Below, one piece after another: positions 11,995-33,142 of a stretch of DNA of 33,439 bases (the stretch's first letter is position 1; each line of letters starts with the position of its first letter). The DNA is taken from IMG/VR virus record IMGVR_UViG_3300034060_001689, positions 1 to 33,439 of that record; one strand, given 5' to 3'. The DNA comes from a virus. Made by a program: the position numbers and the translations under genes. The notes beneath the pieces were generated by a model, which was not told where the DNA came from, did no database searches, and saw only the letters and a program-made list of their open reading frames with translations.

Positions 11995-12014
11995 AATAAT
12001 GATATACTTTATTA

Positions 12015-12022: not shown

Positions 12023-12041
12023 ACCATTGGAAGTAAAAACT

Positions 12042-17161: not shown

Positions 17162-17986
17162 TTAATACGCTACTAATCTATCTTCTACCCAAGCTTGATA
17201 ATTAGGACCTAATTTATATGTAACATTGTTTCCACCACCAACTCTTTCTATAATTTTTGAATGTACTACAGCTGAAAAAAAAGTTGAGTATTGTCCTCTT
17301 GTGTAATGTGAACCAATATATTTTAAAAAATTTGTTTTAGTTTTATTTGGTATTTCAGGTGTATCTTTTATAAAAGTTATTAGTTTATCAACTAAACTAT
17401 TTTCCTTTTTATTGAATGTGATGTTATTATATTTGTGAAAAACCACTAAATTATTTTTTTTAGCTATTGTATTAACAACACTATCTAAATAATTACGATT
17501 TTCACCACCTAAATGTTTTCTATATAGAGAAAGTTTTTGTATAACTTTTTTAGGTTCTAATGTTTCTATTAAATTTTCTATAAATTTTTTTATATAAAAT
17601 GAAATTAAAAATGAAATCCTATGTTTTTCCGTATACCCACCAGAAGATCGATTATAAAGTTTATCTAAATAATTCATTTTATCGTTAATATTTTCTGGTA
17701 AAAAATAAATTTTCCCTAAAAGAAAAACACATATATCGATATCAGACTCATTATTTGGGTAATTAAAATTTTTGGTATTAAATAATTTTTGTAATAAAAA
17801 TTCTATTAGTATTTTACTTTTCTTAATCATTTCTAAATTAAACCCATAAGTATTTAATTTATTTAAAATAATATTAAAATTTTCTTCAAATTTAACTTCG
17901 TCAATAAATAACGTAATATATGAATCTAATTTTTCATTTTCAATAAGTAATCTTTTATATTGGGTTTCATTTATAATAATTTTCAT
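17162..17986 (-). CDS. Candidate internal head protein with winged-helix-like C-terminus, unknown
   Basis: The family of this 274-residue protein is not recognised. The N-terminus MKIIINETQYKRLLIENE matches the short MK-I-x-[LI]-[TN]-E-[ST] leader shared by several genes in this window, with a possible cut after INE at residue 7. The middle is helical and Lys/Asn-rich. The last 75 residues (VDKLITFIKDTPEIP, then HSKIIERVGGGNNVTYKLG) look like a winged helix: helices followed by a beta hairpin with a Gly-rich wing. It lies upstream of the terminase with its own late box 16 bases from the ATG. A DNA-binding protein packaged in the head is one inference; an assembly or regulatory protein is an alternative. 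Confidence 0.65.
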   Translation of the reverse strand: MKIIINETQYKRLLIENEKLDSYITLFIDEVKFEENFNIILNKLNTYGFNLEMIKKSKILIEFLLQKLFNTKNFNYPNNESDIDICVFLLGKIYFLPENINDKMNYLDKLYNRSSGGYTEKHRISFLISFYIKKFIENLIETLEPKKVIQKLSLYRKHLGGENRNYLDSVVNTIAKKNNLVVFHKYNNITFNKKENSLVDKLITFIKDTPEIPNKTKTNFLKYIGSHYTRGQYSTFFSAVVHSKIIERVGGGNNVTYKLGPNYQAWVEDRLVAY

Positions 17987-18002
17987 TTTTTTTAACTTTA
18001 TA

Positions 18003-18010
18003 ATAAATAG
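18003..18010 (-). promoter_or_regulatory. Putative late promoter box, variant CTATTTAT
   Basis: Read on the minus strand as CTATTTAT then TATAAAG, 16 bases before the ATG at 17986. It is the only one of the 17 boxes that departs from ATATTTAT. Confidence 0.5.
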
Positions 18011-18026
18011 TTATTACAAATAAAAA

Positions 18027-18050
18027 AATCCTGTAGTTTCTACAGGATTT
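18027..18050 (-). terminator. Intrinsic terminator
   Basis: AAATCCTGTA (18027-18036) and TACAGGATTT (18041-18050) form a perfect stem around GTTT. In the minus-strand sense the T run in AAATCC supplies the tail. It is 20 bases after the stop codon of the gene ending at 18071. Confidence 0.82.
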
Positions 18051-18070
18051 AATTTATTTTTTTTATAATT

Positions 18071-19513
18071 TTAAAGGTATTTGTGTAATTTACTTACTTT
18101 TTCAAAATCTCCAGAATCTAAAGCGTCATCTATAAGTTTTTGTAATTCACTTTTGGACATATTTTTATAATATGTATCTTCATCTTCTATTTCATCTGTT
18201 TCAGTAGAACTTTCATCACCTAAATGATTTAAGATGTCACCCATATCATCATATCCTGTCTCATCAAACATATCTTCTAAACTATCAGATTGATCTTCGT
18301 TATGTAAATCTTTTAATTCTTTCATAATTTCTTTACATCTTTGACTACCTGATAAAATTTCTTTCACAAATTCGTGGAATTTTTGAGCTGGTAATTTAGT
18401 TAATTCTCTAAATAACCATTGTTTGATATCATAATCCTCATCATCTACACATTCTAAGAATTTTTCCCACATACCTGGACCTAATCTCATACCCCATATC
18501 TCATTCGATGGTGTATCAGCTAATGATATAACTTGTTTTTGTTCTTCGAAATCTAAATGTCCTTCAGCCCAACTAGAAGCTGCTAATTCCATAGACCCTT
18601 TAATTAATTCATGAACTAATAATGGGAAAATCCATGCTTTAGCTACTACTACTGGATATTCTTCACCTTTACTTACTTCGATATTTTCACCACCATCTTC
18701 TTCATTTGAATCATCAGGATCATTAGAAAAATCTTTTTCAGCTTTTTTCCAAACAATTTTTTCAGTTCCACCAATTTGTCCACCCATAACAGTATCGGGA
18801 ATAACCCAATATTGGAAATCTGCGATAGACATAAGTTTACCATATAACCCCATTAATCTAGGATCAATAGAATCTAATTCATCAGCAACCATATGGAAAA
18901 TATAATGTCCTTTTTTAGCTGCTCCTTGCATCATTGCATTGATGATATTTCTTTTATCAACCTCAATTTCTAACTGTTCTAATCTTTCAGCACTTTTAGG
19001 TTGTTTTGATTGTGGTTGTGAAGATGGAGTTTCATCTTCCTCTTCCTCATCACTATCGATTGATAATTTACTTCCTGGTGGTACTAATTCCACTTCTAAC
19101 ATTTCTTGTGGGATATCAAACTCCTCAGAAACGATATCAATAGCTAATTGTTCTAAAGCATCTTTATGTCTAGCTTCTATTTGACTTACTTCACTCATAA
19201 TTCTAAACATTTCCTGCATAATTGTTGGAGATATGTTTTGAACACCATGATATCTTTTTACTTTATTAATGATTTCTTTAAATCTTTTAGATGCTATTTT
19301 TTCTGAATAGTTACTTAAATCACCCGTAGATGGTATAGATTTACTTTTTCCAAAAACGTGTTCACCACTTCTTAAAGTTCTCTCTAAACTTGGGTTCATT
19401 CTTTCAGGGTGTTCAGGATCGTACTCAACAGCTTCAGATAATCTTTTAACCCTAGCTTGTTCTCTAATAACTCTACCTGTAACTTCACTTATTATATTTC
19501 TACTTTTTTTCAT
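18071..19513 (-). CDS. Large acidic conserved-looking phage protein, unknown
   Basis: From the ATG at 19513 the product is 480 residues; a TTG at 19558 would add 15. The N-terminus MKKSRNIISEVTGRVIREQ resembles the MK...[LI]-x-E leader of neighbouring genes (IISE-V, then RLSE-A near residue 27). Acidic, low-complexity spacers (near 155 and 275, and at the C-terminus) separate globular parts. One contains HYIFHMVADELDSIDPRLMG and FQYWVIPDTV, another WIFPLLVHELIKGSMELAAS. The latter parts seem familiar from uncharacterised proteins of other phages, but I cannot name a family. The leader from the box to the ATG is 63 bases, long for this window. A head-associated or packaged protein is a reasonable guess from the N-terminus and position. 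Confidence 0.66.
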   Translation of the reverse strand: MKKSRNIISEVTGRVIREQARVKRLSEAVEYDPEHPERMNPSLERTLRSGEHVFGKSKSIPSTGDLSNYSEKIASKRFKEIINKVKRYHGVQNISPTIMQEMFRIMSEVSQIEARHKDALEQLAIDIVSEEFDIPQEMLEVELVPPGSKLSIDSDEEEEDETPSSQPQSKQPKSAERLEQLEIEVDKRNIINAMMQGAAKKGHYIFHMVADELDSIDPRLMGLYGKLMSIADFQYWVIPDTVMGGQIGGTEKIVWKKAEKDFSNDPDDSNEEDGGENIEVSKGEEYPVVVAKAWIFPLLVHELIKGSMELAASSWAEGHLDFEEQKQVISLADTPSNEIWGMRLGPGMWEKFLECVDDEDYDIKQWLFRELTKLPAQKFHEFVKEILSGSQRCKEIMKELKDLHNEDQSDSLEDMFDETGYDDMGDILNHLGDESSTETDEIEDEDTYYKNMSKSELQKLIDDALDSGDFEKVSKLHKYL

Positions 19514-19576
19514 ATTAATTTTTTTTACAAACCTAAAGCTTTTTTTTATATTAAACAATTTTAATGTTCTGTATAA

Positions 19577-19584
19577 ATAAATAT
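19577..19584 (-). promoter_or_regulatory. Putative late promoter box ATATTTAT
   Basis: Read on the minus strand as ATATTTAT then TTATACAG. It is 63 bases before the ATG at 19513 and 18 bases before an in-frame TTG at 19558, so either a long leader or a TTG start is possible. Confidence 0.5.
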
Positions 19585-19598
19585 CTTTAGTTTTCTTT

Positions 19599-20012
19599 TT
19601 ATAAACCTTTTTTAAATCTCTTAGCTAAATTTAAAGCTCTAACCTTAGATAAGTCTTCTTTATTTTTAGTTTGTACACCTGGTTTCTTTTTATCTGTATC
19701 GTATGACTTTAATTTTTTATCTACCGCAGATATAGATTTATCACCTTTAGTTAATTTAGTAGCTCTACCTTTTTCTAAATCTTTAGGTATCCAATTTTCA
19801 TCACCATCTTTTTCATTTATAGTAACAGATTTTACATCACCTGTTTTTTCATCCTTAACACCATAAGTACCTTTTTTTAATGTATTCATAGTATTAGTGA
19901 ATTCACTTTGTTTATACACCGCCATTTGTTCTACTTCATTAATATATTTTTCCATTAGATTTTTTTTAATGACATTTTTAATTTCGGATTCTGTTAAAAT
20001 TATTTTTTTCAT
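19599..20012 (-). CDS. Lysine-rich small protein, candidate internal head protein
   Basis: The 137-residue product is strongly basic (many Lys, ending RALNLAKRFKKGL). It begins MKKIILTESEIKNVIKK, the clearest form of the shared leader, with LTE-S at residues 6-9. Small basic proteins with a short cleavable N-terminal capsid-targeting sequence are the classic T4 internal proteins (IPI, IPII, IPIII), which are packaged and ejected with the DNA. The body has no recognised domain (TGDVKSVTINEKDGDENWIP in the centre). It follows the 132-residue gene after 8 bases with no promoter of its own, so it belongs to the operon starting at 22551. The internal-protein role is an inference from composition and leader. 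Confidence 0.65.
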   Translation of the reverse strand: MKKIILTESEIKNVIKKNLMEKYINEVEQMAVYKQSEFTNTMNTLKKGTYGVKDEKTGDVKSVTINEKDGDENWIPKDLEKGRATKLTKGDKSISAVDKKLKSYDTDKKKPGVQTKNKEDLSKVRALNLAKRFKKGL

Positions 20013-20020
20013 ATTAATAT

Positions 20021-20419
20021 TTAAGTATTTATTATTTGTTTATCGAATTTCAAAACCATATCTCTTTCATATAATTTATCGTTTACAGATTCAATATCTT
20101 CACCAAAAGAGAAAAATAATCTTTTTTCAGGATAATCATCATACCCTTCCATATTTTCCCAAGCTAAAGCGACAACACCATCTACAGCGTCCCACATAGC
20201 GAAAGAATCAGATTCTTGTACTAAATCTAATCTAAGTGTGGTATTTAAATTACCTGTCTTTTTAATAAAATTTTCTTCTGGTGGTTCTGGATTTCCTGAA
20301 GATGGATAAGAATCCCATCCTTCCCCGTCTATATCCTCTATAACGTCAGAAAAGAGGAATTCATAAATGTAATTCCCCTTCCAATTCTGTCCTACTTTAT
20401 TTATAAAAACTAGTTTCAT
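20021..20419 (-). CDS. Small acidic phage protein, unknown
   Basis: The 132-residue product has aromatic and acidic stretches: YIYEFLFSDVIEDIDGEGWD, then SYPSSGNPEPPEENFIKKTG, and QESDSFAMWDAVDGVVALAW. I have a general recollection of similar proteins in other T4-like phages, without a function. The start overlaps the previous stop by one base (TAATG), so translation is coupled to the 598-residue acidic protein. No leader motif of the MK-I-x-L-T-E type is present (it begins MKLVFINKVGQN). It could be a partner or chaperone of the coupled acidic protein. Confident as a gene, with no assigned role. Confidence 0.68.
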   Translation of the reverse strand: MKLVFINKVGQNWKGNYIYEFLFSDVIEDIDGEGWDSYPSSGNPEPPEENFIKKTGNLNTTLRLDLVQESDSFAMWDAVDGVVALAWENMEGYDDYPEKRLFFSFGEDIESVNDKLYERDMVLKFDKQIINT

Positions 20420-22215
20420 TATCTAAACATTCCTCTTCTTCTAAATGATGGTTTTGGTAAACCTCCTTCTTCCGCTTTAGGATTTGGGTTCACTAATGGT
20501 TTTTTAATTTTTTTCCACTTATCACCTTCACCTGGTTTAGTAATCGGTTTTTGAATTCCTGGTTCTTTAACTGGTGCTGGATTATTCATTTCGAAATCTT
20601 CTAATCCCGCTTTAGGATTTGGATTAACTAATGGTTTATTAATTTTTCTCCATTTGTCTTTTTCTCCTGGTCTAGTGATTGGTTTTTGAATTCCCGGTTC
20701 TTTAACTGGAGCTGGATTATTCATAATAAAATCATAATCTAATTCAATAAAATCTTCTTGATTGTTATGATTAGTTGATGGGTAATCAGCTCTACCATTA
20801 TTATCTTTATCTAAATCTAATCTATTTGGTATACCATCAAAATCACTATCAAAGTCGTAATCTGAAGTATTTTTTGATAAACCATTATTTCTTGGAAATC
20901 TATCTGTGAAATCTACTGATGAAGGAAATTCATTTTTTCCGTATCTTACACTATCCAAAACATCCATATCTTCATCCATCACTCTTTTTTTAGATGGTCT
21001 TTCACCTTTTCTTAAACCTTCGAAATCTTTTTTATTGATTACACCATAAGGTTTTCTTACATCGATATTTTTTCTATTATCTTTAAATGGAGAAGTACTT
21101 TCATTAGCGTCTTGTTCACTACATGTTGAACATCCTTTACCCATACATTCTTCACAAACGTATCTAGACTCTACCATTCTCTTATTATTAGATAATTTTT
21201 TCATTAATGTTTTTTTAGTAAAAGTTTTTGTTTCATCTACTCTTTTATATTTTTTACCATTAACTGTGATGAATTCATCTTCTTTCCCTTTTTTATTTTC
21301 TTCAGATAATTCTTCAGTTGGTTCATCAGATAATTCTTCATCAGTTTCTTCTGATTTAGGTTCGTTATCAAAACCACCTTCCTCTTCATCACCTTCTAAT
21401 TTTGAAATAATATCTTCTTTATCACCCTCATCCATATCATCTAAGTGCATTGCTGAAATTACAGAGTTGATAACATATTTTTCTATTTCAGGATCAACTT
21501 TTTCAGAATCTCTCATTAATTGAGTGATTTTACCAGTTAATTTTTGAATTTTTTTAGTAACTTCGTCACCATCTTCATTATCACCATCTTCTTCATCAGT
21601 ATCTTCTGTGTCACCAAAGTCCATATCAGCGATATCACCACCCATATCAACATCAACCTCATCTTCAACTTCATCTTCTACAGGAGCCTCAACTGGAGTT
21701 TCTTGTTTTGGTACATCTACTTTTAATACAGATTTAGCTTCTTCTAATTCATCATCAGAATCAGATATTAATTCTTTTTTTTCTTCTTCAGTTTCATCTT
21801 CTTCCATAACAAAACCAAATCCAACACCACCACCAAAAGCAACACCATCAGATTCAAAGATGTTTATGTTATTTTCAATACCATAAGATTCATTTAACAT
21901 ATCAAACTTTAAATTTAATTGTTTTAAAGCTTCAGAATAAGAATGGTATTTTTCACTACCTTTATTTTGTAAACCTCCGATATAGTTAAAATCTTCAGCT
22001 AAAAATTGTCCATTTGTTTTATTAGATGTTTTAATGAAGTAATCATGATTTTCTCTAACGATACCATAAACAATACCATTTGGACCTTTTTTTATTAATT
22101 CTAATTCAGAAAAACTTTTACTTTCATTTAAAGTAGTCATTTTCCCCATAAGGTCTAACATTCTATTTAATTTATCTTGACCTTTAAGACTTTTTGGATT
22201 TACATTATTTTTCAT
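20419..22215 (-). CDS. Very acidic multi-segment protein with C-terminal tandem repeat, unknown
   Basis: The product is 598 residues. An N-terminal domain at about residues 36-115 (SFSELELIKKGPNGIVYGIV, then EDFNYIGGLQNKG) seems familiar from other phage proteins, but I know no function for it. A very Asp/Glu-rich region follows at about 145-310. A Cys cluster (CEECMGKGCSTC, near 355) may bind a metal. A DSDFDGIPNRLDLDKDNNGR stretch near 475 is like the Ca-binding loops of TSP3 or dockerin domains. Two 45-residue repeats follow, and the tail is basic (KPSFRRRGMFR). LNE-S occurs near residue 30. The gene is 9 bases after the 108-residue gene, whose promoter it shares. The composition resembles scaffold, so a second core or head protein is possible, but this is not shown. 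Confidence 0.68.
   Translation of the reverse strand: MKNNVNPKSLKGQDKLNRMLDLMGKMTTLNESKSFSELELIKKGPNGIVYGIVRENHDYFIKTSNKTNGQFLAEDFNYIGGLQNKGSEKYHSYSEALKQLNLKFDMLNESYGIENNINIFESDGVAFGGGVGFGFVMEEDETEEEKKELISDSDDELEEAKSVLKVDVPKQETPVEAPVEDEVEDEVDVDMGGDIADMDFGDTEDTDEEDGDNEDGDEVTKKIQKLTGKITQLMRDSEKVDPEIEKYVINSVISAMHLDDMDEGDKEDIISKLEGDEEEGGFDNEPKSEETDEELSDEPTEELSEENKKGKEDEFITVNGKKYKRVDETKTFTKKTLMKKLSNNKRMVESRYVCEECMGKGCSTCSEQDANESTSPFKDNRKNIDVRKPYGVINKKDFEGLRKGERPSKKRVMDEDMDVLDSVRYGKNEFPSSVDFTDRFPRNNGLSKNTSDYDFDSDFDGIPNRLDLDKDNNGRADYPSTNHNNQEDFIELDYDFIMNNPAPVKEPGIQKPITRPGEKDKWRKINKPLVNPNPKAGLEDFEMNNPAPVKEPGIQKPITKPGEGDKWKKIKKPLVNPNPKAEEGGLPKPSFRRRGMFR
20455..20724 (-). repeat. Two tandem 135-base repeats inside the acidic-protein gene
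   Basis: Copies at 20590-20724 and 20455-20589 each encode 45 residues. Both begin MNNPAPVKEPGIQKPIT and carry the NKPLVNPNPKA or KKPLVNPNPKA segment; they differ at only a few internal positions and in the last six residues. They are Pro/Lys-rich and in frame, so they look like a recent duplication of a binding or linker module. Confidence 0.9.
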
Positions 22216-22224
22216 ATTTTATTT

Positions 22225-22551
22225 TTAATTTTCTTCTATTATTGGATTACCTGTTTTTATATTTACAAATTTGTAAGTTTCCGTTGTTGTTGAAGCGGAA
22301 ATTAATCCTGTGTCAAATACATCCGCTGGTTTATTATTACCTAAAAGTAAAAAACCTGAATTAAGTGTTGTTGTTGATCCATTAACTAAAATATCTAATG
22401 TTTCACCCGCTACACCTACTACAGATATACCATTAATAGTATAAGTACCATTTGTGTTAAAGTATATAGCACTATACACATTACTATTAAAGTTTACGGT
22501 TGTATTATTATGAATAACTGTGTATGTACCAGTTCTATAAGTTGTTCCCAT
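22225..22551 (-). CDS. Small beta-rich Thr/Asn/Gly protein, possible virion decoration protein
   Basis: The 108-residue product is beta-strand-rich and full of Thr, Asn, Gly, Val and Ile (VIHNNTTVNFNSNVYSAIYF, then GVAGETLDILVNGSTTTLNS), with no Cys or Trp. Such composition is common in small virion surface, decoration and tail proteins, but I recognise no family. It has a late box 16 bases upstream and is the first gene of the unit continuing into the acidic 598-residue protein. A structural role is inferred only from composition and the late box. Confidence 0.65.
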   Translation of the reverse strand: MGTTYRTGTYTVIHNNTTVNFNSNVYSAIYFNTNGTYTINGISVVGVAGETLDILVNGSTTTLNSGFLLLGNNKPADVFDTGLISASTTTETYKFVNIKTGNPIIEEN

Positions 22552-22567
22552 ATTTAATGTTTTCTAT

Positions 22568-22575
22568 ATAAATAT
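22568..22575 (-). promoter_or_regulatory. Putative late promoter box ATATTTAT
   Basis: Read on the minus strand as ATATTTAT then ATAGAAAA, 16 bases before the ATG at 22551. It probably drives the four-gene unit ending at 19599. Confidence 0.6.
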
Positions 22576-22586
22576 TACATTTTAAA

Positions 22587-22617
22587 TAAAAAAGCGATAT
22601 CAGATTAAATGATACCT
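22587..22617 (-). terminator. Intrinsic terminator overlapping the 3' end of the nucleotidyltransferase gene
   Basis: In the minus-strand sense GGTATCA pairs with TGATATC (one G-U pair) around a 7-base loop that contains the TAA stop codon (22605-22607). A T-rich tail follows after GC. The stem therefore includes the last codons of the gene. Confidence 0.6.
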
Positions 22618-23402
22618 CTAAATTGTTTTATAGTTTCGTGAAGTGTAAGTGATTTATCATACGCGTTAGTTTCTAATTCACTTAATTTATCTAGATATTC
22701 AGTTCTTCTTAAAACTTTAAAAGCGATGTTTTCGTATGAATATTCACCTTCTCTATCTAATCCAGATTGTCTCATTTTTTTTATCTTATCTTTAAGTGTT
22801 TTAATTCTTCTGATAGTTTTATCGTATTCAGCTCCTTTATATAAAAGGTAAATATCTTCTATAATATCTATAATTGAATTAACCTTTTCTTTCACTTTTA
22901 CAGAATCTATTTTCTTATCACCCTTTTCAGGTTTAATAACCCATCCATCCCATAAAACAGAATAAACCCCACTTGAAACGTGAGGTTCACTAACATCTTG
23001 TACATATAATTCAACATCATATCCTTTTATTTTAATATCATGTTTATCATTCCATAAATTCTTTTTAGAGTTGAAGTACTCTTTAACTAAATCTATATTT
23101 TCATCTACATCTTCAAAATTTAATAAAATATGTAAATCTACATCTGAAAATTTTGACCAGTTATAATTAGATAAACTACCAGTAAGGATAATATCTTGTA
23201 TATCCACCCAACTAATTTCAAGTGTTTCAAAAAAATCATCAGCGATTAATAACAATCTAGTACGTATTTCATCATACATATGTTGAGTTTCATCAAAAAC
23301 TTTAGGGTTTAATGTATCCCTTACTTTAAATGAAGATAAATCAATTTTTTCTCTTTCGATAATATCATTAACTTCGTTTTCTTCTAATCTTCTAATATCC
23401 AT
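22605..23402 (-). CDS. Predicted nucleotidyltransferase
   Basis: The 265-residue product has the polymerase-beta-type nucleotidyltransferase signature: LTGSLSNYNWSKFSDVDLHI, with Gly-Ser at residues 75-76 and the metal-binding pair Asp87 and Asp89, and a third acidic residue in VELYV (Glu131). Such enzymes transfer an NMP to a protein, nucleic acid or small molecule; the substrate is unknown. The second half is helical and charged (KTLKDKIKKMRQSGLDREGE). The first residues, MDIRRLEENEVNDIIERE, loosely match the shared leader (LEE-N), which raises the possibility that it is packaged and ejected. A late box lies 16 bases upstream, so it is probably expressed late, unlike a typical takeover enzyme. 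Confidence 0.75.
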   Translation of the reverse strand: MDIRRLEENEVNDIIEREKIDLSSFKVRDTLNPKVFDETQHMYDEIRTRLLLIADDFFETLEISWVDIQDIILTGSLSNYNWSKFSDVDLHILLNFEDVDENIDLVKEYFNSKKNLWNDKHDIKIKGYDVELYVQDVSEPHVSSGVYSVLWDGWVIKPEKGDKKIDSVKVKEKVNSIIDIIEDIYLLYKGAEYDKTIRRIKTLKDKIKKMRQSGLDREGEYSYENIAFKVLRRTEYLDKLSELETNAYDKSLTLHETIKQFRGII

Positions 23403-23418
23403 AAAATATTTTTTATAA

Positions 23419-23426
23419 ATAAATAT
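23419..23426 (-). promoter_or_regulatory. Putative late promoter box ATATTTAT
   Basis: Read on the minus strand as ATATTTAT then TTATAAAA, 16 bases before the ATG at 23402. Confidence 0.6.
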
Positions 23427-23448
23427 TAAGGAAAGTATAAATATGTTT

Positions 23449-23479
23449 AAAAATAAGAAACAGGCGTAATCTTATTTTT
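23449..23479 (-). terminator. Weak A/T-rich terminator-like hairpin
   Basis: AAAAATAAGA (23449-23458) can pair perfectly with TCTTATTTTT (23470-23479) around an 11-base loop. It follows the stop codon of the gene at 23500 on the minus strand. The stem is almost all A-T, so strength is doubtful. Confidence 0.45.
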
Positions 23480-23499
23480 ATCCTTTAATTATTTGTTTT

Positions 23500-23694
23500 C
23501 TATTTATTATTAATAGTCACTATTTCATATCTCTTATTTTCTTCCGTTGAATTGTTAAGAACTTGACAAATTCTCGTAACCTCTCCAAAACAACTTGTTT
23601 CGAAAACTTCGTAATTACCATTTAATAGTAAAACATTTTGTATCTTATCCTTACTTGATTTGATAACTTTTTTAATTTGATAACTTGTAATCAT
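23500..23694 (-). CDS. Small unknown protein
   Basis: The 64-residue product (MITSYQIKKVIKSSKDKIQN, then a beta-rich second half with FGEVTRICQVLN and a final YEIVTIN) has no recognised family. It starts one base after the stop codon of the KTSC gene, so it is translated with it as the last gene of a three-gene unit. The close packing is the main evidence that it is real. Confidence 0.55.
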   Translation of the reverse strand: MITSYQIKKVIKSSKDKIQNVLLLNGNYEVFETSCFGEVTRICQVLNNSTEENKRYEIVTINNK

Positions 23695-23695
23695 T

Positions 23696-23989
23696 TTATT
23701 TATTTTTTAATTGAATAATTTGTTCTAATAATGGTTTAACATTCACTATGTCCTTAGACATTTCATTTTTATATTTTTTAATAGTGGTGTTTAATGTTTT
23801 ACCTTGACTTTCTGAAGATTCAAATTTAATATAATCTTCCTTCTTTACATCTTCATAAACATATTGTCTTCCAGAACTAAAAATTAAAGCTAATTTTTTT
23901 TCTTTAATTAAATACTTTGAAGCTAAAATATTTGATGAATCAAATAAACACTCTATAGCGTTCTCTCCCTCTTGTTTTACTAATACCAT
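23696..23989 (-). CDS. KTSC-domain protein
   Basis: The 97-residue product contains a clear KTSC domain: residues near 25-70 read SKYLIKEKKLALIFSSGRQY, then YEDVKKEDYIKFESSESQGK, then TLNTTIKK. The closing lysine and the S-x-G-K-x-x-N element are the family signature. KTSC proteins are small and occur in bacteria and phages, and their molecular role is poorly known. The gene is the middle one of three, with gaps of 4 bases upstream and 1 base downstream. No late box is seen in front of the unit, so it may be expressed at a different time from the head genes. Confidence 0.78.
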   Translation of the reverse strand: MVLVKQEGENAIECLFDSSNILASKYLIKEKKLALIFSSGRQYVYEDVKKEDYIKFESSESQGKTLNTTIKKYKNEMSKDIVNVKPLLEQIIQLKNK

Positions 23990-23993
23990 AATT

Positions 23994-24218: not shown

Positions 24219-24278
24219 ATATTTTATAATTTAAAAGTAAAAATAATAAATTAAATTTAAAACACAAAATAATATGAA

Positions 24279-24303
24279 AAAAAAATCCCCTCATTTGAGG
24301 GGA
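24279..24303 (-). terminator. Intrinsic terminator after the Hsp20 gene
   Basis: CCCCTC (24287-24292) pairs with GAGGGG (24297-24302) around ATTT. In the minus-strand sense a long T run follows. It is 6 bases after the Hsp20 stop codon. Confidence 0.88.
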
Positions 24304-24308
24304 CTGAA

Positions 24309-24791
24309 TTAACTAATTTTAATTTTCCTTGTATTTGTTTCCCAATCAGTAGTTTTTTCTTTAGGGATAAAAATAGTTGTAATACCATTTTTAGTTTTAG
24401 CGTGAATATCTTCACTAACAATATTTTTAGGTAATTTGAATGTACGTAAGAATTTAGTTTCGTGTAATTCTTTAGTAATGTATTTACCTGTAGTTGTTGT
24501 TGATTCAGTTTCTTGTTTTTCACCAGTTATCGTAATATGTTCTCCATGAATTTCGATATCTAAATCACTTTTAGTAATTCCTGGTGTGAAAATTTCATAT
24601 CTATAACCATTCTCATCCTCAAAAATATTAGTTAAAGGAACATTCGTTGTAACATTCTTTAATGTTGAGAAATCAGTAGTAGTTTTAGGAATAAAAGTAG
24701 TACCGAAAGTTGTTAATGGTTTTAAGAAAACATTTTCTTCTAAAATTGTGTCAAATTCTTTTAAAAATTTACTTAATTGTTTTTCTGTCAT
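24309..24791 (-). CDS. Small heat-shock protein, Hsp20 / alpha-crystallin family
   Basis: The 160-residue product has an N-terminal flexible arm and an alpha-crystallin domain at about residues 55-150. The domain runs NIFEDENGYRYEIFTPGITK, then LDIEIHGEHITITGEKQE, then ELHETKFLRTFKLPKNIVSE and GITTIFIPKE. A conserved arm-like IFIP motif is visible near the end. Such chaperones bind unfolding proteins without ATP and form oligomers. T4-like phages of several hosts carry Hsp20 genes, and here a ClpC-type unfoldase is encoded nearby, so both may serve protein quality control during infection or assembly. No ATATTTAT box is seen upstream. The family call is firm. Confidence 0.9.
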   Translation of the reverse strand: MTEKQLSKFLKEFDTILEENVFLKPLTTFGTTFIPKTTTDFSTLKNVTTNVPLTNIFEDENGYRYEIFTPGITKSDLDIEIHGEHITITGEKQETESTTTTGKYITKELHETKFLRTFKLPKNIVSEDIHAKTKNGITTIFIPKEKTTDWETNTRKIKIS

Positions 24792-24876
24792 TTTTGTTTT
24801 TATTTATTTATGTTATTTATTATTTTTTGTCTCTCTTAGACAAACTATGTACCAAAGTATAAATTATGTCAATTTG

Positions 24877-25800: not shown

Positions 25801-25821
25801 AAAATTATTTTTAAATTTGAA

Positions 25822-25853
25822 CAAATATAGTAATATTTATTTAAAAAAACAAA
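25822..25853 (-). promoter_or_regulatory. Bacteroidota-type promoter TTTG-N20-TATATTTG
   Basis: On the minus strand TTTG (25850-25853) and TATATTTG (25822-25829) are separated by 20 bases. This matches the -33 TTTG and -7 TAnnTTTG elements of the Bacteroidota primary sigma factor. It lies 21 bases before the methyltransferase ATG at 25800 and overlaps the late-type box of the divergent ClpC gene. Confidence 0.65.
25833..25840 (+). promoter_or_regulatory. Putative late promoter box ATATTTAT
   Basis: ATATTTAT then TTAAAAAAA on the plus strand, 12 bases before the ATG at 25853 (18 before the ATG at 25859). It overlaps the spacer of the minus-strand host-type promoter, so the two could interfere. 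Confidence 0.5.
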
Positions 25854-28330
25854 TGGACATGAAAAAAGTCTTACCTATCGTAAAAAAAATCTTTAATATG
25901 TCAATCAAAGAGGCTAAACTTTATGATGATTTTGAAGTAAAAATAGAACATGTAATGATTTCAATCATTAATAACTATGATAATATTGCTATAAGAATAT
26001 TAGAGGATATGGGTATCGATGTTGATTTATTACATAAAAAGATTGAACGTAAGTTAGTAAAGAAGAAACCTAATAATTTAGAGAACTTTACAATGGATAT
26101 TCCTTTAAATGAATTAACTGAAGAAATAATAAAAAACGCCGAAATCGAGTGCGATTTATTAAAAGATAAATATTTAGATATACCACATATTGTCTTGTCA
26201 ATATTGTCGAAAAAAAATAACGTGAATACAATTCTTAAAACAATGAAAGTTACTTATAAAGAGTATCAAAAAGAAGTGAAAAAACATATTGTCCAAAACG
26301 CTATTGAGCCTATGGATAATGATGAAGACGCTTTCAAAAAAAATAAGAAAAATACTAAAAATGGAAAAACAAATGCTACACCTATTTTAGATAATTTTTC
26401 AACTGACTTAACTAAAAGAGCGTCAGAAGGTAAAATAGATCCTGTGATAGGTAGAGATGAAACTATTCAAAGGGTTGCTCAAATATTAGCGAGAAAAAAG
26501 AAGAATAATCCTGTATTAATCGGGGATCCGGGAGTTGGTAAGACGACAATTGTTGAGGGATTAGCTTTAAAAATAATTAATGGAGATGCTCCTAGAACAT
26601 TATTAGATAAGAGAATTATCTCATTAGACGTTACTTCTTTAGTTGCTGGTACAAAATATAGAGGACAGTTCGAAGAAAGGATTAAAGGTATCGTAGATGA
26701 ATTATTAGAAGTAGATAACGTTATTCTTTTTATAGATGAATTACATACTATAGTTGGTGCTGGAAATGCGTCAGGATCAATGGATGCTGCGAATGTATTA
26801 AAACCAGCTTTAGCGAGAGGTGATATTCAAGTTATCGGTGCTACTACATTAGATGAATACCGTTTACATATTGAAAAGGATGGAGCTTTAACAAGAAGAT
26901 TCCAACAAGTAATTATTCCAGCTACCACAGTGGAAGATACTATTAAAATATTGAATAAAGTAAAATCTTCATATGAAGAATTCCACAAAGTTTCTTATAG
27001 TGAAGAAACAATTGAAAGATGTGTGAAATTAGCTGAAAGATATATTACTGATAGAGAATTTCCCGATAAAGCTTTAGACATTTTAGATGAAGTTGGTTCT
27101 CGTTCTCAGGTTAATGCTAAACCACCAGAATCTATTAATAAAATAGAACAAAAAATTATTAGTTTAAAAGATAAGAAAACTCAGGTAGTTAAAAATCAAA
27201 AATATGAGGAAGCTGCTAAACTTAGAGATGAAGAAAGAATTTTAAATGAAAAATTAGAAATTGAAAAAGAAAAATGGTTAGATAGTTTAAATAAGAAAAG
27301 ACAAAAGATTACACCAGATGATGTAAATGAAGTCGTTTCAATTATGACTGGTATCCCATTAAATAGAATGAGTGGGGATCAAGGTAAAAGACTCTTAGAA
27401 ATGGAGAAAGATTTATATGGTTCAGTTATTGGACAAGATGATGCGTTAGTTAAAATAGCTCAATCATTAAGAAGAAATAGAGTAGGTATTAGAAACCCTA
27501 AAAAACCTATTGGTAGTTTTTTATTCTTAGGTCCAACGGGAACAGGTAAAACTCACCTTTCTAAAAAATTAGCGGAATATATGTTTGGAGATGATGAAGC
27601 GTTGATTAGATTTGATATGTCTGAATTCCAAGAAAAACATTCTGTATCTAGATTAATTGGGTCACCTCCAGGATATGTAGGACACGAAGAAGGTGGACAA
27701 TTAACTGAAAAAGTTAGAAGAAGACCATATTCAATTATTTTATTTGATGAGATTGAAAAAGCGAACAAAGATATCTACAATATTCTTTTACAACTTTTAG
27801 ATGATGGACAATTAACAGATAGTTTAGGAAGGAAAGTTAACTTTAAAAATTGTATGGTAATTATGACATCTAATGTTGGTGTTAGAAAACTTCAAGAATT
27901 TGGTGGAGGTGTTGGATTTGGTACTAAAACTAAATTAGATAAAGAAGATTCAATTAAAAGCGATATTTTAAAAGATGAACTTAAAAAACATTTCGCCCCA
28001 GAATTCTTAAATCGTTTAGATGATGTTATTATCTTCAATTCTTTAGGTAAAGAAGATATTGGAAAAATAGTTGATTTAGAAATTGTAAAATTAAGAGGTA
28101 GAGTAGGTGAGATAGGTTATGATTTAGAAATTGATAAAACAGCTATAGATTTCTTAATCGAAACTGGATATGATGAAGAATATGGTGCTAGACCTTTAAA
28201 TAGATCGATACAGAAATATATTGAAGATCCTGTATCTGAAGAAATTTTAGGTGATAAAGTAAAAATGGGACAAACAATAAAGATAAGTTATAATGAAAAG
28301 ACAGAGTCTATCGAAATAAAAAGTGAATAA
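25853..28330 (+). CDS. clpC: ClpC-type AAA+ unfoldase
   Basis: From the ATG at 25853 the product is 825 residues; an upstream TTG at 25817 would add 12 and is unlikely. In order it has a Clp N-domain (residues 1-150, two repeats), and AAA domain 1 with GDPGVGKT (224-231) and VILFIDE (290-296). A short middle part with a UVR-like KYEEAAKLRDEE (about 450-461) follows. AAA domain 2 has GPTGTGKT (560-567) and ILFDE (629-633). The short middle domain with UVR motif points to ClpC and not ClpB. Pore-loop sequences (TKYRGQ and PGYVG) are intact. A VGF triplet at about 687-689 sits where ClpA and ClpC carry the ClpP-docking loop. It presumably unfolds substrates for a host ClpP, since no ClpP is seen here. 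A strong terminator follows. Confidence 0.92.
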   Translation: MDMKKVLPIVKKIFNMSIKEAKLYDDFEVKIEHVMISIINNYDNIAIRILEDMGIDVDLLHKKIERKLVKKKPNNLENFTMDIPLNELTEEIIKNAEIECDLLKDKYLDIPHIVLSILSKKNNVNTILKTMKVTYKEYQKEVKKHIVQNAIEPMDNDEDAFKKNKKNTKNGKTNATPILDNFSTDLTKRASEGKIDPVIGRDETIQRVAQILARKKKNNPVLIGDPGVGKTTIVEGLALKIINGDAPRTLLDKRIISLDVTSLVAGTKYRGQFEERIKGIVDELLEVDNVILFIDELHTIVGAGNASGSMDAANVLKPALARGDIQVIGATTLDEYRLHIEKDGALTRRFQQVIIPATTVEDTIKILNKVKSSYEEFHKVSYSEETIERCVKLAERYITDREFPDKALDILDEVGSRSQVNAKPPESINKIEQKIISLKDKKTQVVKNQKYEEAAKLRDEERILNEKLEIEKEKWLDSLNKKRQKITPDDVNEVVSIMTGIPLNRMSGDQGKRLLEMEKDLYGSVIGQDDALVKIAQSLRRNRVGIRNPKKPIGSFLFLGPTGTGKTHLSKKLAEYMFGDDEALIRFDMSEFQEKHSVSRLIGSPPGYVGHEEGGQLTEKVRRRPYSIILFDEIEKANKDIYNILLQLLDDGQLTDSLGRKVNFKNCMVIMTSNVGVRKLQEFGGGVGFGTKTKLDKEDSIKSDILKDELKKHFAPEFLNRLDDVIIFNSLGKEDIGKIVDLEIVKLRGRVGEIGYDLEIDKTAIDFLIETGYDEEYGARPLNRSIQKYIEDPVSEEILGDKVKMGQTIKISYNEKTESIEIKSE

Positions 28331-28340
28331 TTAATAAATA

Positions 28341-28366
28341 GGGGGATTTTTTAATCCCCTTTTTTT
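28341..28366 (+). terminator. Intrinsic terminator after the ClpC gene
   Basis: GGGGATT (28342-28348) pairs with AATCCCC (28353-28359) around TTTT, followed by a run of seven T. It is 11 bases after the ClpC stop codon. Confidence 0.9.
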
Positions 28367-28388
28367 ATAGAAAAATTTTTTAAAAATT

Positions 28389-28418
28389 TTTGTAAATTAA
28401 AATTAATTCGTATATTAG
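28389..28418 (+). promoter_or_regulatory. Possible host-type promoter TTTG-N18-TATATTAG
   Basis: TTTG (28389-28392) and TATATTAG (28411-28418) are 18 bases apart and end 19 bases before the ATG at 28438. The second element differs from TAnnTTTG at one position. The gene has no ATATTTAT box, so a host-type promoter is plausible. Confidence 0.45.
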
Positions 28419-28437
28419 TAGAAATAAAATAAGAGTT

Positions 28438-29265
28438 ATGAAAAATTTATTTTTATCATTAGTGTTATTATTAAGTGTGAATGGTTTTACTCAAAGTCAT
28501 AACGACACTTTAAAAAAATGGTATTCTGTTAATAAATTAGCGGTAGAGAAAGAATTTGTTCGTTTAATCGATTCAGCTAGAAGTTCTTTACTTTTGAAAA
28601 AAACTGTTATTTATCGTTCAGATGATGGTTTTTCACAAAAAGAATTAAGAACAATTGTAAAAAAAGAAACAGCTGAAGGTAACTTTTGTCAAGTAATAAA
28701 AAAATCTAAAAGTCATAAAATATTTTATATTTTAATCACAAAAAACTTTCATGTTGTAAAAATGGAATATGATAGTTTATTATCGTTAGCTGCTGGACAT
28801 CACGCTAAATATTTAAGTGAAGTTGTTGAAAAAAGTGGTTATATTAGTCATGAAGAATATAAAAACTATTCTGGGTACATTTATAATGGATCATTACCAA
28901 TTTTAGAATACCCATCCGATAGAGTTAAATATTATTGCCCTTCAAGATATTATGCTGGAGAATGTTTAATTGATGGTATTGTTGGGCATATTGCTACCTT
29001 AGAAAAAGAAGCCGCTATTAATTATTGGGTGAAAAATATTAATCATATAAATGTTAAATCAGTTGCTAAAAAGTTTTTTGAAGATTTCAAATCATCTAAA
29101 AAACATTGGGAGGCATTTATGAGACTATCTGATATCGATCTTATGGGTGTTTATTTTTTAATGAATTTCGAAAATTCACAAATGGAATTTGTAACTGTTA
29201 TGGGTAAAGATAAAGAAAAATATATTAACCCTATGTACGATGTTGAGGGTTTAACATTAAAATAA
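28438..29265 (+). CDS. Secreted CAP/SCP-like protein
   Basis: The 275-residue product begins with a typical signal peptide (MKNLFLSLVLLLSVNGFTQS), so it should be exported to the periplasm or beyond. The C-terminal half resembles the CAP (SCP/TAPS) fold. A helix LAAGHHAKYLSEVV has His122, the element YYAGECLIDGI has Glu175 where CAP proteins have GEN/GEC-type residues, and SSKKHWEAFM has His223 in a SPGHRxxL-like position, followed by DLMGVYFLMN. The His-Glu-His arrangement agrees with the CAP cavity residues, but the fold call is from pattern only. Two Cys in the middle could form a disulfide. It is flanked by terminators and has a host-like promoter, so it is a single-gene unit. Export, adhesion, lysis or host modulation are all open. 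Confidence 0.6.
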   Translation: MKNLFLSLVLLLSVNGFTQSHNDTLKKWYSVNKLAVEKEFVRLIDSARSSLLLKKTVIYRSDDGFSQKELRTIVKKETAEGNFCQVIKKSKSHKIFYILITKNFHVVKMEYDSLLSLAAGHHAKYLSEVVEKSGYISHEEYKNYSGYIYNGSLPILEYPSDRVKYYCPSRYYAGECLIDGIVGHIATLEKEAAINYWVKNINHINVKSVAKKFFEDFKSSKKHWEAFMRLSDIDLMGVYFLMNFENSQMEFVTVMGKDKEKYINPMYDVEGLTLK

Positions 29266-29290
29266 GGGGATTTAATCCCCTTATTTTATT
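29257..29290. terminator. Bidirectional terminator between convergent genes
   Basis: AATAAGGGGATT and AATCCCCTTATT form a near-perfect palindrome (about 29261-29285) flanked by A and T runs. It overlaps the stop codons or last bases of both convergent genes (29265 plus, 29286 minus) and can serve both. Confidence 0.85.
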
Positions 29291-30878
29291 TATATAATAT
29301 ATTATCTAACCATTTTGGTAATCCTGTAAATGTTCCTGTATTTCTAGAAATATTTTTACCTGATTTATCATATTTTGCTTGTGTAAGGTCAAACCAAGAA
29401 GCTATTCTTTTACCACCTTCTGATTTACTTGAGTCAACATAAATAATTGCTTGTCTTAAATTACCTTCATTAGAACCTAATGTAATTTTAGGTGGTTTTA
29501 TTTTTTCACTAATTTTTACAGCAACTCCTTTAATATAAAGTCTAGCATATTGTCCAGAACCTTCAGCACCCGCAGGATCAACATTACCACCTGTATCAGT
29601 AACTCTCCACTCAACTTTTTCGGTAACATCATTAAGAATTGTTATATTCCCTAAAACATCTCCAAGTGAAGAACCATTAATCGATTTAATTAAACTTAAT
29701 ATTCTTTGACCTCTATTCCAAGATAAAAGATTGTTAGCATCAACATTTCCTTTATTTGTTTCTATTGGTTTCTGATTATAATTAATTCCTTTTTTAACAA
29801 CATTACCACTTCTATCGTGTGTAAAATCAACTACACCTTTATAATAGTTACTCGCTGATGAAATTACACTAATACTATTTATATCTAAATTTTTATAACC
29901 TTTTTTATTAAGTTCTTCCCCAATTTTAGTTAAAAGTGATTTTTTAGCTTCTTCGTTATTTTTAAAAGTTGAGAATCCTGTTGTAAACGCTTCTGAAAGT
30001 TCTACAACTAAATCAACAGGTGTTTTTTCTTTTATTATTATCTCTGGGGTTTTAGTACCTTCTTCTGGTCTATTAGATGACACACCAACAGTAAGTATAC
30101 CATCAGCAGGGACATCACCTTTAACTGCCATAAAAAAACCACTTTGTGTTGGTTGTTTAACACCACCTACATTCCCAAAAGTTATTAAATAATATTGTTG
30201 TTCACCTTTCAAAAAAGATTCCACATTTTGATTCAATACCCATGACGCTATATCTTCAGGATTTGTAGATTTCATTAATATTGATTCATTAGAAGCATAT
30301 AAAGGAATTTCAGGTGTTTCTGTTTTTTCATCTTCACCTTTAATAGATCTACCATTTACAAATTCCATCGGTGTAACAGATTTATTAAGAGCTTCTACTT
30401 TAATATTCCCAAAATTAGAGGTTTTTTTAATGTTTAAAGTACCATTCAAAAGTCCTGTTCTAAAAACCTTATTCATATTAGAACCTTTAACCTGAGCTTT
30501 AGAAACAATCCCTTCAGATATTTTTTTAGCTAACTCATCACTTATTTTAAGTGATCTTGGTGACTTATTCGCAACTTCCTTTATATCTTCAGCAAATGTA
30601 TCTTCAGTTAAATTTGTAATATCTTCCTGAGACGCTTCTTTATCTTTCTTTTTTTCTGTAGAACCACCACCTATACCACCACCGAATTGTCCTTGATCTT
30701 TTGGGGTAGTTTTAATATTTTTTCCTAGATCTTGTTCTTTAAGAAGATATTTCTCAATCATCTTCTCTTCTATTAGTCTGTCATATGAAGTTACATTTTC
30801 ATTATATTCTTTAGAATCGAAATTTATTAATTTTCTCATCTTATATAATTCTTCACTTAAATTAGTTTTTCTTTTCAT
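29286..30878 (-). CDS. Large unknown protein with Gly-rich hinge and possible OmpA-like part
   Basis: I do not recognise a family for this 530-residue protein. It begins MKRKTNLSEELYKMRKLINF, a loose form of the shared leader (LSE-E). A helical segment (MIEKYLLKEQDLG, with LKE-Q) follows, and then a Gly-rich hinge near 65 (GQFGGGIGGGS). The middle is mixed and includes ASNESILMKSTNPEDIASWV. The region near 330-400 (NSISVISSASNYYKG, then LLSWNRGQRILSLI) faintly recalls an OmpA-like peptidoglycan-binding fold with its N-x-x-LS-x-x-R helix, but the similarity is weak. The late box lies 22 bases upstream and a bidirectional terminator lies at its 3' end. It could be a structural or ejected protein. 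Confidence 0.62.
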   Translation of the reverse strand: MKRKTNLSEELYKMRKLINFDSKEYNENVTSYDRLIEEKMIEKYLLKEQDLGKNIKTTPKDQGQFGGGIGGGSTEKKKDKEASQEDITNLTEDTFAEDIKEVANKSPRSLKISDELAKKISEGIVSKAQVKGSNMNKVFRTGLLNGTLNIKKTSNFGNIKVEALNKSVTPMEFVNGRSIKGEDEKTETPEIPLYASNESILMKSTNPEDIASWVLNQNVESFLKGEQQYYLITFGNVGGVKQPTQSGFFMAVKGDVPADGILTVGVSSNRPEEGTKTPEIIIKEKTPVDLVVELSEAFTTGFSTFKNNEEAKKSLLTKIGEELNKKGYKNLDINSISVISSASNYYKGVVDFTHDRSGNVVKKGINYNQKPIETNKGNVDANNLLSWNRGQRILSLIKSINGSSLGDVLGNITILNDVTEKVEWRVTDTGGNVDPAGAEGSGQYARLYIKGVAVKISEKIKPPKITLGSNEGNLRQAIIYVDSSKSEGGKRIASWFDLTQAKYDKSGKNISRNTGTFTGLPKWLDNILYK

Positions 30879-30900
30879 CTATGATACTCTTTTATATATT

Positions 30901-30908
30901 ATAAATAT
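30901..30908 (-). promoter_or_regulatory. Putative late promoter box ATATTTAT
   Basis: Read on the minus strand as ATATTTAT then AATATATAA, 22 bases before the ATG at 30878. Confidence 0.6.
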
Positions 30909-30937
30909 ACATAGATAGTAAAAAAAGTATAACAAAA

Positions 30938-30968
30938 AAAAAGGATCTGTTATTCAGACCCCTTTTTA
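30938..30968 (-). terminator. Intrinsic terminator after the frameshifted gene
   Basis: In the minus-strand sense GGGTCTG pairs with CAGATCC (one G-U pair) around AATAA, followed by a run of nine T. It lies about 40 bases after the stop codon at 31003-31005. Confidence 0.75.
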
Positions 30969-31002
30969 AAAATTTTCATTTTTTTTACTATCGTTATATT
31001 TT

Positions 31003-31430
31003 TTAGAAACAACTAAAAGCGATATTACTAATATGTTTTATAATTTGATCATATTCTTCATCAACTGATGACATTTCAGAATTAATGAAAGTCAGTAAGT
31101 CTTTACCTGATAATTTTTTTATATTAATATTACATTTTTTTAAACCAGCACAATCTTTAATGTATTTAACCGCATGTAGAACTAATCCTTCATTATCATC
31201 AATTCTATCTGTTAAGGCATCATATATATATGCTGCTGGATTTTCCCTTATATTTGGTGATTCAGTTTCTACTTTTTTTTTTGACCTTTCGGTTGTTCAG
31301 TAATAACTCTACCTTTGTTATTTTTCAAAGATTCAGTAATCTCTTTTCTTTTTTCTCTTTTAATCTCGTTTACGATAGTTTCTATTAAAGTAACCATTTC
31401 AGATTCCGTAAGTCTTATTTTTTTTTTCAT
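31003..31430 (-). CDS. Leader-bearing protein read through a -1 frameshift at an A-tract
   Basis: The zero-frame product is only 53 residues (MKKKIRLTESEMVTLIETIV onward), ending at TAG 31269-31271. If the ribosome slips back one base on A-AAA-AAG just before that stop, the frame stays open to TAA at 31003-31005. That gives about 142 residues whose second part reads VETESPNIRENPAAYIYDAL and later DCAGLKKCNINIKKLSGKDL. Both parts use the same A/T-rich codons and there is no second start, so they look like one gene. A late box lies 23 bases before the ATG and a terminator after the second part. The N-terminus is the best match to the shared leader (LTE-S). Programmed frameshifting, a real mutation and a homopolymer sequencing error are all possible. 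Confidence 0.6.
31272..31283 (-). other. dnaX-like slippery sequence with adjacent stop codon
   Basis: On the minus strand the codons are CAA AAA AAA AAG followed by TAG. The heptamer A-AAA-AAG in the correct phase is the type used in the bacterial dnaX gene. The ten-A run also permits transcriptional slippage. Confidence 0.6.
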
Positions 31431-31453
31431 AGTGTTAATTTTATTTTTTTATT

Positions 31454-31461
31454 ATAAATAT
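31454..31461 (-). promoter_or_regulatory. Putative late promoter box ATATTTAT
   Basis: Read on the minus strand as ATATTTAT then AATAAAAAA, 23 bases before the ATG at 31430, in the gap after the LRR gene. Confidence 0.6.
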
Positions 31462-31483
31462 ATAAAAATTTTGTAAAGTTTCA

Positions 31484-33142
31484 TTATTTAGATAAGAAAG
31501 GGTTAGTATCTGTAGATGAATTTAACCACTCATTATATTTCGATAAGGATTCTTCATTGAAGTTACCTGGATCAATTCTGAAAACCATAAGTTCATTCTC
31601 AGTTAATTCAACTAAACCATTAATATCTAAATTAACTACTGGGTTAGAACTAATATTTAAAGCGAAAATATTAGGGAATTTTTTTGACCAACCTGTAAGG
31701 TTTACATCTTTAATACTATTGTTTCTAAAAGAAGCTACTTGTAATTTAGACGCTTCAGGTAATTTATCTAAAGATGGTAGTTTAGTTAAACCACATCCTT
31801 CAGCTGTTAAATTTGTTAAATTTTTAAAATTACTTAAATCTGGTAATTCACCTAATGGTAAATTATTAAAATCTAATTTCTCAACATCGGGATTTAAAAA
31901 TTCAACTAATGAAATCCCTTTAACATTAGATAATAACCATTTTAAATATTTATTATTGTTTAATGGACCTTTATCTAAAGAAGCTTTTTGTTTTATACTC
32001 TCAACACCTTCTTTATATACTTCTGGAGAAATAACTGATTCAACAGAACCACCAAATTTATTTAAATAATTAATATATTTACTTTCCATTAATCCAGATC
32101 CTTTTTTAATATCCATTTCCGCCAAAGCAGTTAATTCTTTTAAGAAGAAATTTCTTAATCCTGAATATTTACTAAGTACCTCTTGTAATGTGATTTTAGC
32201 ACCTGGTTTATCGATAGAAGCATTACTTTTATCATGTATCTGATCACTTTCAAAATGAAATTGTAATGGATAAATAATATTATCTTTTTCTGTAAATAAT
32301 TCTTTCGGCATAATTACATAATAATCTGATAAAGAACCATCAGGTTTCAGATGATCTCTTCTATATCTATCAAAGTATGTATTATCCTCTCTTCTAGTAC
32401 ACCAAGTAGCTAATGGACCTAATGGTTCACAACTTGATTCACGAGTTAATGGTGTATATACTAAAACACTACCATCTCTATAAGCTAATTTAGCCTCACC
32501 TAAATCTATATATTTCTTTAACTTTTTCCAAAGAGGACTTTCTGAACCTTCACCTTCACCTTCTTCATCTTCATCATCAGCAGTTTCTATAAATGGACTA
32601 ATCACAGTATATAATTGAGACAAACTAGTATATTGATTTATATCTGAAACATTTTGTGGAGCATTTGGTCTATTAGGAGCACTTCTTTTAAATAATTTTT
32701 TATTTTTTATTTTATCAAAAATACCTAAAAATTCATTTACTTCCATTAAATCTTCGCTAACAAATCTAATCGCAGCTTCTTCATCACCTTCCGCAATGTG
32801 TTTTAAAAACACATTTATAATCCATTGTACATATTGTTTATTAGTAGTAGGATCACTTGAAACTATATCATTAAAAGTTTGATCAGTTAATTTGATAGAT
32901 TCTTTACCTTTTTTACTTTTTACTTTATAAGCTAAATCAATACCATCATGATTTTGTAAAGGTTTTAATGAATCTTTTTGTGGTTTCATTCCTCCTGGTA
33001 TTCTTTCTTCACCTGATTCTAACTCACCTTCTACTGATTTATCTAAAATTTTAGGATCAATTACATATTGTCCTTTTAAAAATTGTACTCTATCTTCTTT
33101 TAAAAGGGTTTTTAATTGATTTTCTGTTATTATATATTTCAT
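31484..33142 (-). CDS. LRR protein with a WCT-motif domain and prohead-type leader, unknown
   Basis: The 552-residue product begins MKYIITENQLKTLLKED, one of the clear forms of the shared leader (ITE-N, residue 7). A helical part follows (YVQWIINVFLKHIAEGDEEA near 105). After an acidic linker (about 186-200) comes a domain at about 205-310 with LGPLATWCTR and YYVIMPKE then PLQFHFESDQIHD. I recall this WCT domain from other phage proteins of unknown function. The C-terminal third (about 421-512) contains leucine-rich repeats: KLDFNNLPLGELPDLSNFKN, then LTAEGCGLTKLPSL, then NIFALNISSNPVVNLDI. LRRs usually bind protein. The late box is 17 bases upstream. A packaged, perhaps ejected, protein that binds a host target is the most interesting inference, but no target is visible. 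Confidence 0.7.
   Translation of the reverse strand: MKYIITENQLKTLLKEDRVQFLKGQYVIDPKILDKSVEGELESGEERIPGGMKPQKDSLKPLQNHDGIDLAYKVKSKKGKESIKLTDQTFNDIVSSDPTTNKQYVQWIINVFLKHIAEGDEEAAIRFVSEDLMEVNEFLGIFDKIKNKKLFKRSAPNRPNAPQNVSDINQYTSLSQLYTVISPFIETADDEDEEGEGEGSESPLWKKLKKYIDLGEAKLAYRDGSVLVYTPLTRESSCEPLGPLATWCTRREDNTYFDRYRRDHLKPDGSLSDYYVIMPKELFTEKDNIIYPLQFHFESDQIHDKSNASIDKPGAKITLQEVLSKYSGLRNFFLKELTALAEMDIKKGSGLMESKYINYLNKFGGSVESVISPEVYKEGVESIKQKASLDKGPLNNNKYLKWLLSNVKGISLVEFLNPDVEKLDFNNLPLGELPDLSNFKNLTNLTAEGCGLTKLPSLDKLPEASKLQVASFRNNSIKDVNLTGWSKKFPNIFALNISSNPVVNLDINGLVELTENELMVFRIDPGNFNEESLSKYNEWLNSSTDTNPFLSK

Follow-up and report, generated by a model that had tools for sequence, protein, structure and literature searches.

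Why do otherwise unrelated proteins of one phage begin in the same way? The window that we analysed is the whole of a 33,439-base stretch of viral DNA, IMG/VR virus record IMGVR_UViG_3300034060_001689. The earlier note had pointed there to a leader common to the proteins starting at 33142, 31430, 20012 and 17986, and had proposed that it marks a set of internal head proteins. A strict regular expression for the leader motif, run over both strands of the window, matched only at these four positions, each of them the start of a minus-strand ORF, and this first part of the claim held. Of the 30 called genes that encode 80 aa or more, 3 have the motif; in 20,000 shuffles of the N termini it turned up 0.0066 times on average and at most once.

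The four proteins differ in their bodies. A 552-aa protein with an LRR-like C terminus (31484..33142, minus strand) carries the leader at residues 1-16, MKYIITENQLKTLLKE/D (33095-33142; the slash marks the boundary). An alignment of six orthologs shows M1, K2, Y3, I5, E7, N8, Q9, L13, L14, E16 and D17 retained; AlphaFold has low confidence at residues 1-20 (pLDDT 49, 58), and Foldseek returns LRR matches. In the 53-aa Lys-rich protein (31269..31430, minus strand), the leader takes up residues 1-22, MKKKIRLTESEMVTLIETIVNE/I (31365-31430), and has the same form as the strict leader family (IRLTESE..I..IVNE). The 137-aa protein (19599..20012, minus strand) has it at residues 1-21, MKKIILTESEIKNVIKKNLME/K (19950-20012); orthologs read IYESEIKRA(V/I)RRKLME/R, so that the second LxE is retained and the first LTE has become IYE. 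The fourth, a 274-aa protein with a winged-helix-like C terminus (17162..17986, minus strand), begins with MKIIINETQYKRLLIE/N at residues 1-16 (17939-17986). Among its 11 orthologs E7 and Q9 are invariant, E16 is present in at least 90% and the middle parts diverge. AlphaFold places a helix at leader residues 7-16 with low confidence (pLDDT about 62) and residues 21-70 at pLDDT of at least 90, and the protein has weak local ArsR-like matches. Foldseek searches did not assign a firm function to the bodies of the leader proteins.

Looser forms had also been claimed at 19513, 30878 and 23402. The first two held as the same phenomenon. The 480-aa protein at 18071..19513 (minus strand) has a leader at residues 1-27 that ends RLSE/AVEYDPEH (19433-19513), given in full as MKKSRNIISEVTGRVIREQARVKRLSE/AVEYDP. 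The 530-aa protein at 29286..30878 (minus strand) has a long leader of a second kind, residues 1-48, ending YLLKE/Q (30735-30878); against the proteins at 27071 in contig G009 and 63154 in contig G005, only the first 44-48 aa can be aligned, at 68-69% identity. Two further minus-strand genes resemble these. A 598-aa protein (20419..22215) has a conserved N terminus ending TLNE/S at residue 31 (22123-22215), retained in the orthologs of G003, G004, G005 and G009, and a 236-aa protein (7337..8047) has a short one ending LLE/S (8015-8047), conserved in orthologs as [VI]LLE/[SA] or VILE/S. The 598-aa product is large and acidic, and a 'MNNPAPVKEPGIQKPIT' repeat occurs in it twice, close to the C terminus. 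The claim for 23402 failed, as did that part of the claim of unrelated bodies which rested on it: its N terminus is shared across a conserved family of nucleotidyltransferases and lacks a conserved [LI]xE end. We also rejected the protein at 12586-13353, whose site is not retained in all relatives (VVD, VAD).

We then searched viral contigs with the strict back-translated pattern MKKI[IV]RLTExDL. At least 120 stretches of viral DNA contain the strict leader, and the 143 matches in the loci examined lie at ORF N termini. The statement in the earlier note that similar leaders exist elsewhere was correct; large uncultured phage contigs have them in abundance. For the anatomy of the leader, 138 leader proteins from uncultured viral contigs were reduced to 92 unrelated body clusters. 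A short N-terminal leader common to unrelated proteins is what membership in a T4-like targeting system asks for, as is an L/I-x-E end, and both tests were met. The leader is an amphipathic helix of 16-22 residues, not merely a motif within the first ten, and it ends at the second [LIV]-x-E. E22 is present in 82 of the 92 unrelated proteins, and position 20 (P3) is I, V or L in 91 of 92, including V, which lies outside the strict L/I, in 15. Information reaches about 3.5 bits at E22 and then collapses, staying under 0.45 bits from residue 25 onward. The cut after L/I-x-E is an inference from sequence, and its likeliest final position is the second [LIV]xE, not only the LTE of residues 6-9. The T8-E9-x-D11 stretch resembles a helix cap, an inference on our part. 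Nearly all leader DNA sequences are distinct (119 of 121), and synonymous codons vary while the residues stay fixed; selection therefore acts on the protein, not on the DNA.

The boundary is equally sharp when one family of bodies is followed. In the family of the 18071-19513 protein, all 14 distinct ortholog N termini, 22-36 aa long, have [LI]xE as their last three residues, with the conserved [AG][IV]EYDP following at once, and they do so with nine different triplets (ISE, ITE, LVE, LRE, LNE, LSE, IVE, LIE and LTE). More generally, orthologs swap, gain or lose leaders at the [LI]xE boundary, with the body starting beside the leader; the list of swaps was refiltered to exclude truncated ORFs. 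For example, the protein at 100309 in contig G001 begins MSLKFLNIINE/E and that at 47444 in G010 begins MRDIIRKILLE/E. Both the swapping and the boundary would be expected of a modular tag that carries a protease site, as far as can be inferred from sequence alone. Several orthologs have no leader at all, and therefore packaging would not always be needed. We also observed homologous pairs with and without a leader (e.g., 7857 in G001 and 78207 in G005), as if one form entered the head and the other was produced inside the cell. Near N termini [LI]xE is enriched, with an observed/expected ratio of 1.7-1.8 at residues 3-20 vs 1.07 at residues 61-80.

The protease expected of such a system is encoded in the window. 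Its minus strand carries a T4-like head module of capsid protein, scaffold candidate, S77 prohead protease, portal and terminase. The gp21-type S77 protease (11308..12027, minus strand; PF03420 E 8.8e-23, phrog_207 E 4e-41) is 30% identical to T4 gp21 and has the HP and GVSSRG motifs, so a protease of this class with catalytic motifs occurs in the same phage as the leaders, a further test of membership that was met. Its called start (12027) is probably 33 bases early; relatives begin at MEILKKNE (window 11994), and the MEIL codon at 11994 is probably the true start. The gp23-like major capsid protein (8132..9883, minus strand; phrog_138 E 7.4e-68) has a likely maturation site, ALLNE/S, at residue 60, with the propeptide at 9704-9883. 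The site reads LL[NST]E/[SA] in all listed relatives, and the counterpart in T4 gp23 is FLTE/A at residue 65; the capsid protein thus carries the leader-type [LI]xE motif at the T4 position, which was likewise a test. Between the protease and capsid genes lies an acidic gp22-like scaffold candidate (9920..11200, minus strand), assigned by composition and by this position. Its N terminus contains FLLE/A, retained as [AF]LLE/A in most relatives and replaced by LLD/A in some. A gp20-like portal protein (13395..15278, minus strand; phrog_213 E 1e-58) and the terminase large subunit (15327..17120, minus strand; phrog_2 E 1e-47) complete the module. The nearest portals among cultured phages are those of Microcystis phage Mel-JY01 and Flavobacterium phage immuto, and relatives of the protease were located in viral contigs, the largest (G001) of 253,879 bases. 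The window also has a Clp-type AAA+ unfoldase-like gene at 25817-28330 and an Hsp20 gene at 24309-24791; the Hsp20 has a short N-terminal stretch ending LKE, a position at which [LI]xE occurs in most orthologs.

How many genes carry such leaders? The earlier note described one leader family, and this has to be corrected, since more exist: besides its leader (shape A) there are two short shapes, B and D (MKNIIRKILKE/S and MKLSKLITE/N), and a longer one, C. In G001, 45 of 259 genes match one of the four shapes, where shuffling gives 3.7 and internal windows give 5.4. With about 4-5 expected false matches among the 45, this leaves about 40 tagged genes in one 254-kb contig vs a handful in T4. Patterns B-D were devised after inspection of G001, and the other genomes, though related, are the fairer test. 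Six other relatives have 7 to 20 matching genes each vs about 1 expected; enrichment in G002 is weaker (7 of 73 genes). Pfam names few of the bodies (peptidoglycan-binding, cell wall hydrolase, M23 peptidase, lysozyme, ferritin and amidotransferase). The ferritin is probably a false positive of pattern B. Phage immuto has leaders of its own, MENFDLKKFLVE/N and MKKSQLRQIIKE/A, and each T4-like lineage appears to use a distinct tag. We found no description of these leaders in the literature searched.

The leader is restricted to phages and linked to the S77 protease. A search of 84,980 prokaryotic genomes with the strict leader gave one match, in a 4-kb contig with three leader genes. This contig, DFKH01000032.1, is titled an Alphaproteobacteria MAG and looks like a phage contig, probably misbinned. 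A tblastn search of a phage collection with the 24-aa leader gave no match, the query being too short for this to mean much. PF03420 (S77) is present in 15 of 17 leader contigs of at least 100 kb vs 2 of 11 tRNA-picked control contigs of that size (Fisher p 0.0004), and in 21 of 21 leader contigs with a strong capsid match. Contigs picked by NrdA were dropped as a control set; they were only close relatives of immuto. A referee may point to the leader contigs without S77. Thirty of these 31 also lack a terminase match and the remaining one has its terminase at the contig edge; they are therefore probably fragments. Three controls (G074, G094 and G111) have a looser leader pattern and no S77, and they too lack a terminase match. 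Common ancestry of a single phage group may possibly explain part of the linkage. The co-occurrence predicted earlier held, and the case that would have refuted it, a leader common without a gp21-type protease, was sought and not found in the contigs examined.

Among known systems, the closest is that of T4. The targeting sequences of IPI, IPII, IPIII and Alt (PMC9026906, PMC9958956) are likewise short N-terminal leaders on unrelated bodies with an L/I-x-E end, and the protease class (S77) and capsid maturation site are the same. T4 gp21 cleaves on the C-terminal side of L/I-X-E, and a propeptide may contain several of its sites; the IPIII leader needs 10 residues, and Alt is cut at ITE-6 (PMC9026906, PMC5694885). 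The T4 leader, however, is about 10 aa long, whereas those of the window's type have 16-22 aa or more, another sequence and at least four shapes. Against the T4 leader MKTYQEFIAE the membership test was not met: the form is alike and the letters are different. We conclude that the logic is that of T4 capsid targeting, with different letters and a much larger cargo set. The jumbo phages phiKZ and SPN3US also have a large internal protein load and process many head proteins after Glu, by gp175/gp245, which act on inner-head propeptides (PMC5694885). They differ in the motif (S/A-x-E or A-x-E), in the protease family (S80) and in having several propeptides of more than 100 residues, mostly not a shared tag (PMC5694885). 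The P3 residues of the leaders fail the test for such a site.

Published virion data bear on the principle. S-CREM2 (OR473000) is a T4-like cyanophage with a virion proteome (Table 3 of PMC10665884); like the window phage, it has leaders on unrelated proteins, and these were found in virions. We applied a motif taken from the T4 IPs, [FYLW]xx[FW][LIMF]xE within the first 30 residues. It is present on 6 of 26 non-structural virion proteins vs 2 of 153 undetected ones (p 0.00012; data of PMC10665884), and absent from downstream windows of S-CREM2 proteins. The six are a SAM hydrolase, a kinase, a Cas9-like nuclease, a cytidylyltransferase and two hypotheticals; the four named proteins share a T4-like start that ends F[LM]xE, and MKNFSSFLTE/A is an example of an S-CREM2 leader. 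The motif was picked after the virion N termini had been listed, so the smallest p-value is optimistic; a looser version gave p 0.0045 and two cruder patterns gave 0.05 and 0.01. The comparison excluded a few CDS and all genes past base 150,000. The authors caution that non-structural virion proteins may be carry-over (PMC10665884), and the relevant passages of their paper describe no leader. A leader common to these proteins argues against carry-over, and it is a likely reason for the presence of the SAM hydrolase, kinase and Cas9-like nuclease in the virions. The S-CREM2 leader resembles that of T4, not that of the window; the result thus supports the tag principle among T4-like phages and does not bear directly on the leader of the window.

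The reading best supported by far, and in our judgement very likely correct, is that the leaders are lineage-specific capsid-targeting sequences removed by the phage's gp21. On this reading the leader, a short amphipathic helix at the N terminus, would dock the protein that carries it into the core of the scaffold during prohead assembly; the S77 protease would then cut after the terminal [LIV]-x-E, and the mature body would stay inside the head. An additional cut after the earlier LTE is possible, as in Alt, given the L/I-X-E rule of T4 gp21 and the several sites that one propeptide may contain. Docking, cutting and packaging are proposed by analogy with T4, with no protein-level data for the window's leader family. 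Delivery of the bodies into the host along with the DNA would go one inference beyond packaging, an extension from the T4 IPs and Alt. The earlier proposal of a marked set of internal head proteins is thus supported, every computationally testable prediction having held; that the window's own proteins are cleaved, packaged and ejected is an inference.

The rival that survives best is that the leader is a docking helix for another phage structure or a host factor, such as the baseplate, membrane or polymerase, and that gp21 does not cut it. Docking of any kind could rely on an amphipathic helix alone, some leader proteins have peptidoglycan-binding or lysozyme domains and could be tail-associated, and there are no direct cleavage data. 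However, conservation stops at a triplet that fits the gp21 rule and leaves the middle residue free, this site recurs in the phage's own capsid protein, and tagged non-structural proteins of S-CREM2 occur in virions. We consider this rival unlikely. Less likely still is a DNA-level feature, either a start region spread by recombination or a translational or regulatory signal. Recombination would give the same start on unrelated bodies, but nucleotide leaders are nearly all distinct and vary at synonymous sites. Chance likeness of low-complexity N termini in an AT-rich genome (window GC 24-34%, Lys and Ile common) is practically ruled out by the 45 matches seen in G001 vs 3.7-5.4 in shuffles and internal windows, and by the phage-only distribution of the strict leader.

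There is also a bolder reading, to which we incline with reservations: large T4-like phages, mostly uncultured, may load dozens of proteins per head through lineage-specific tag families, any protein may become cargo by gaining a tag, and the tags may be readable from sequence alone. If true, this would reveal hundreds of unknown delivered protein families. The head cargo of large phages, and what they pass to the host, has been established in only very few cases. With a searchable tag, the cargo of thousands of uncultured genomes becomes a question of sequence, and the tag points to candidate anti-defence and host-takeover proteins. In LR756508.1, a 484-kb uncultured phage, about a dozen neighbouring small proteins of the form MKxxExKLRxxIREEIxxxxxE lie within 42 kb, near head genes.
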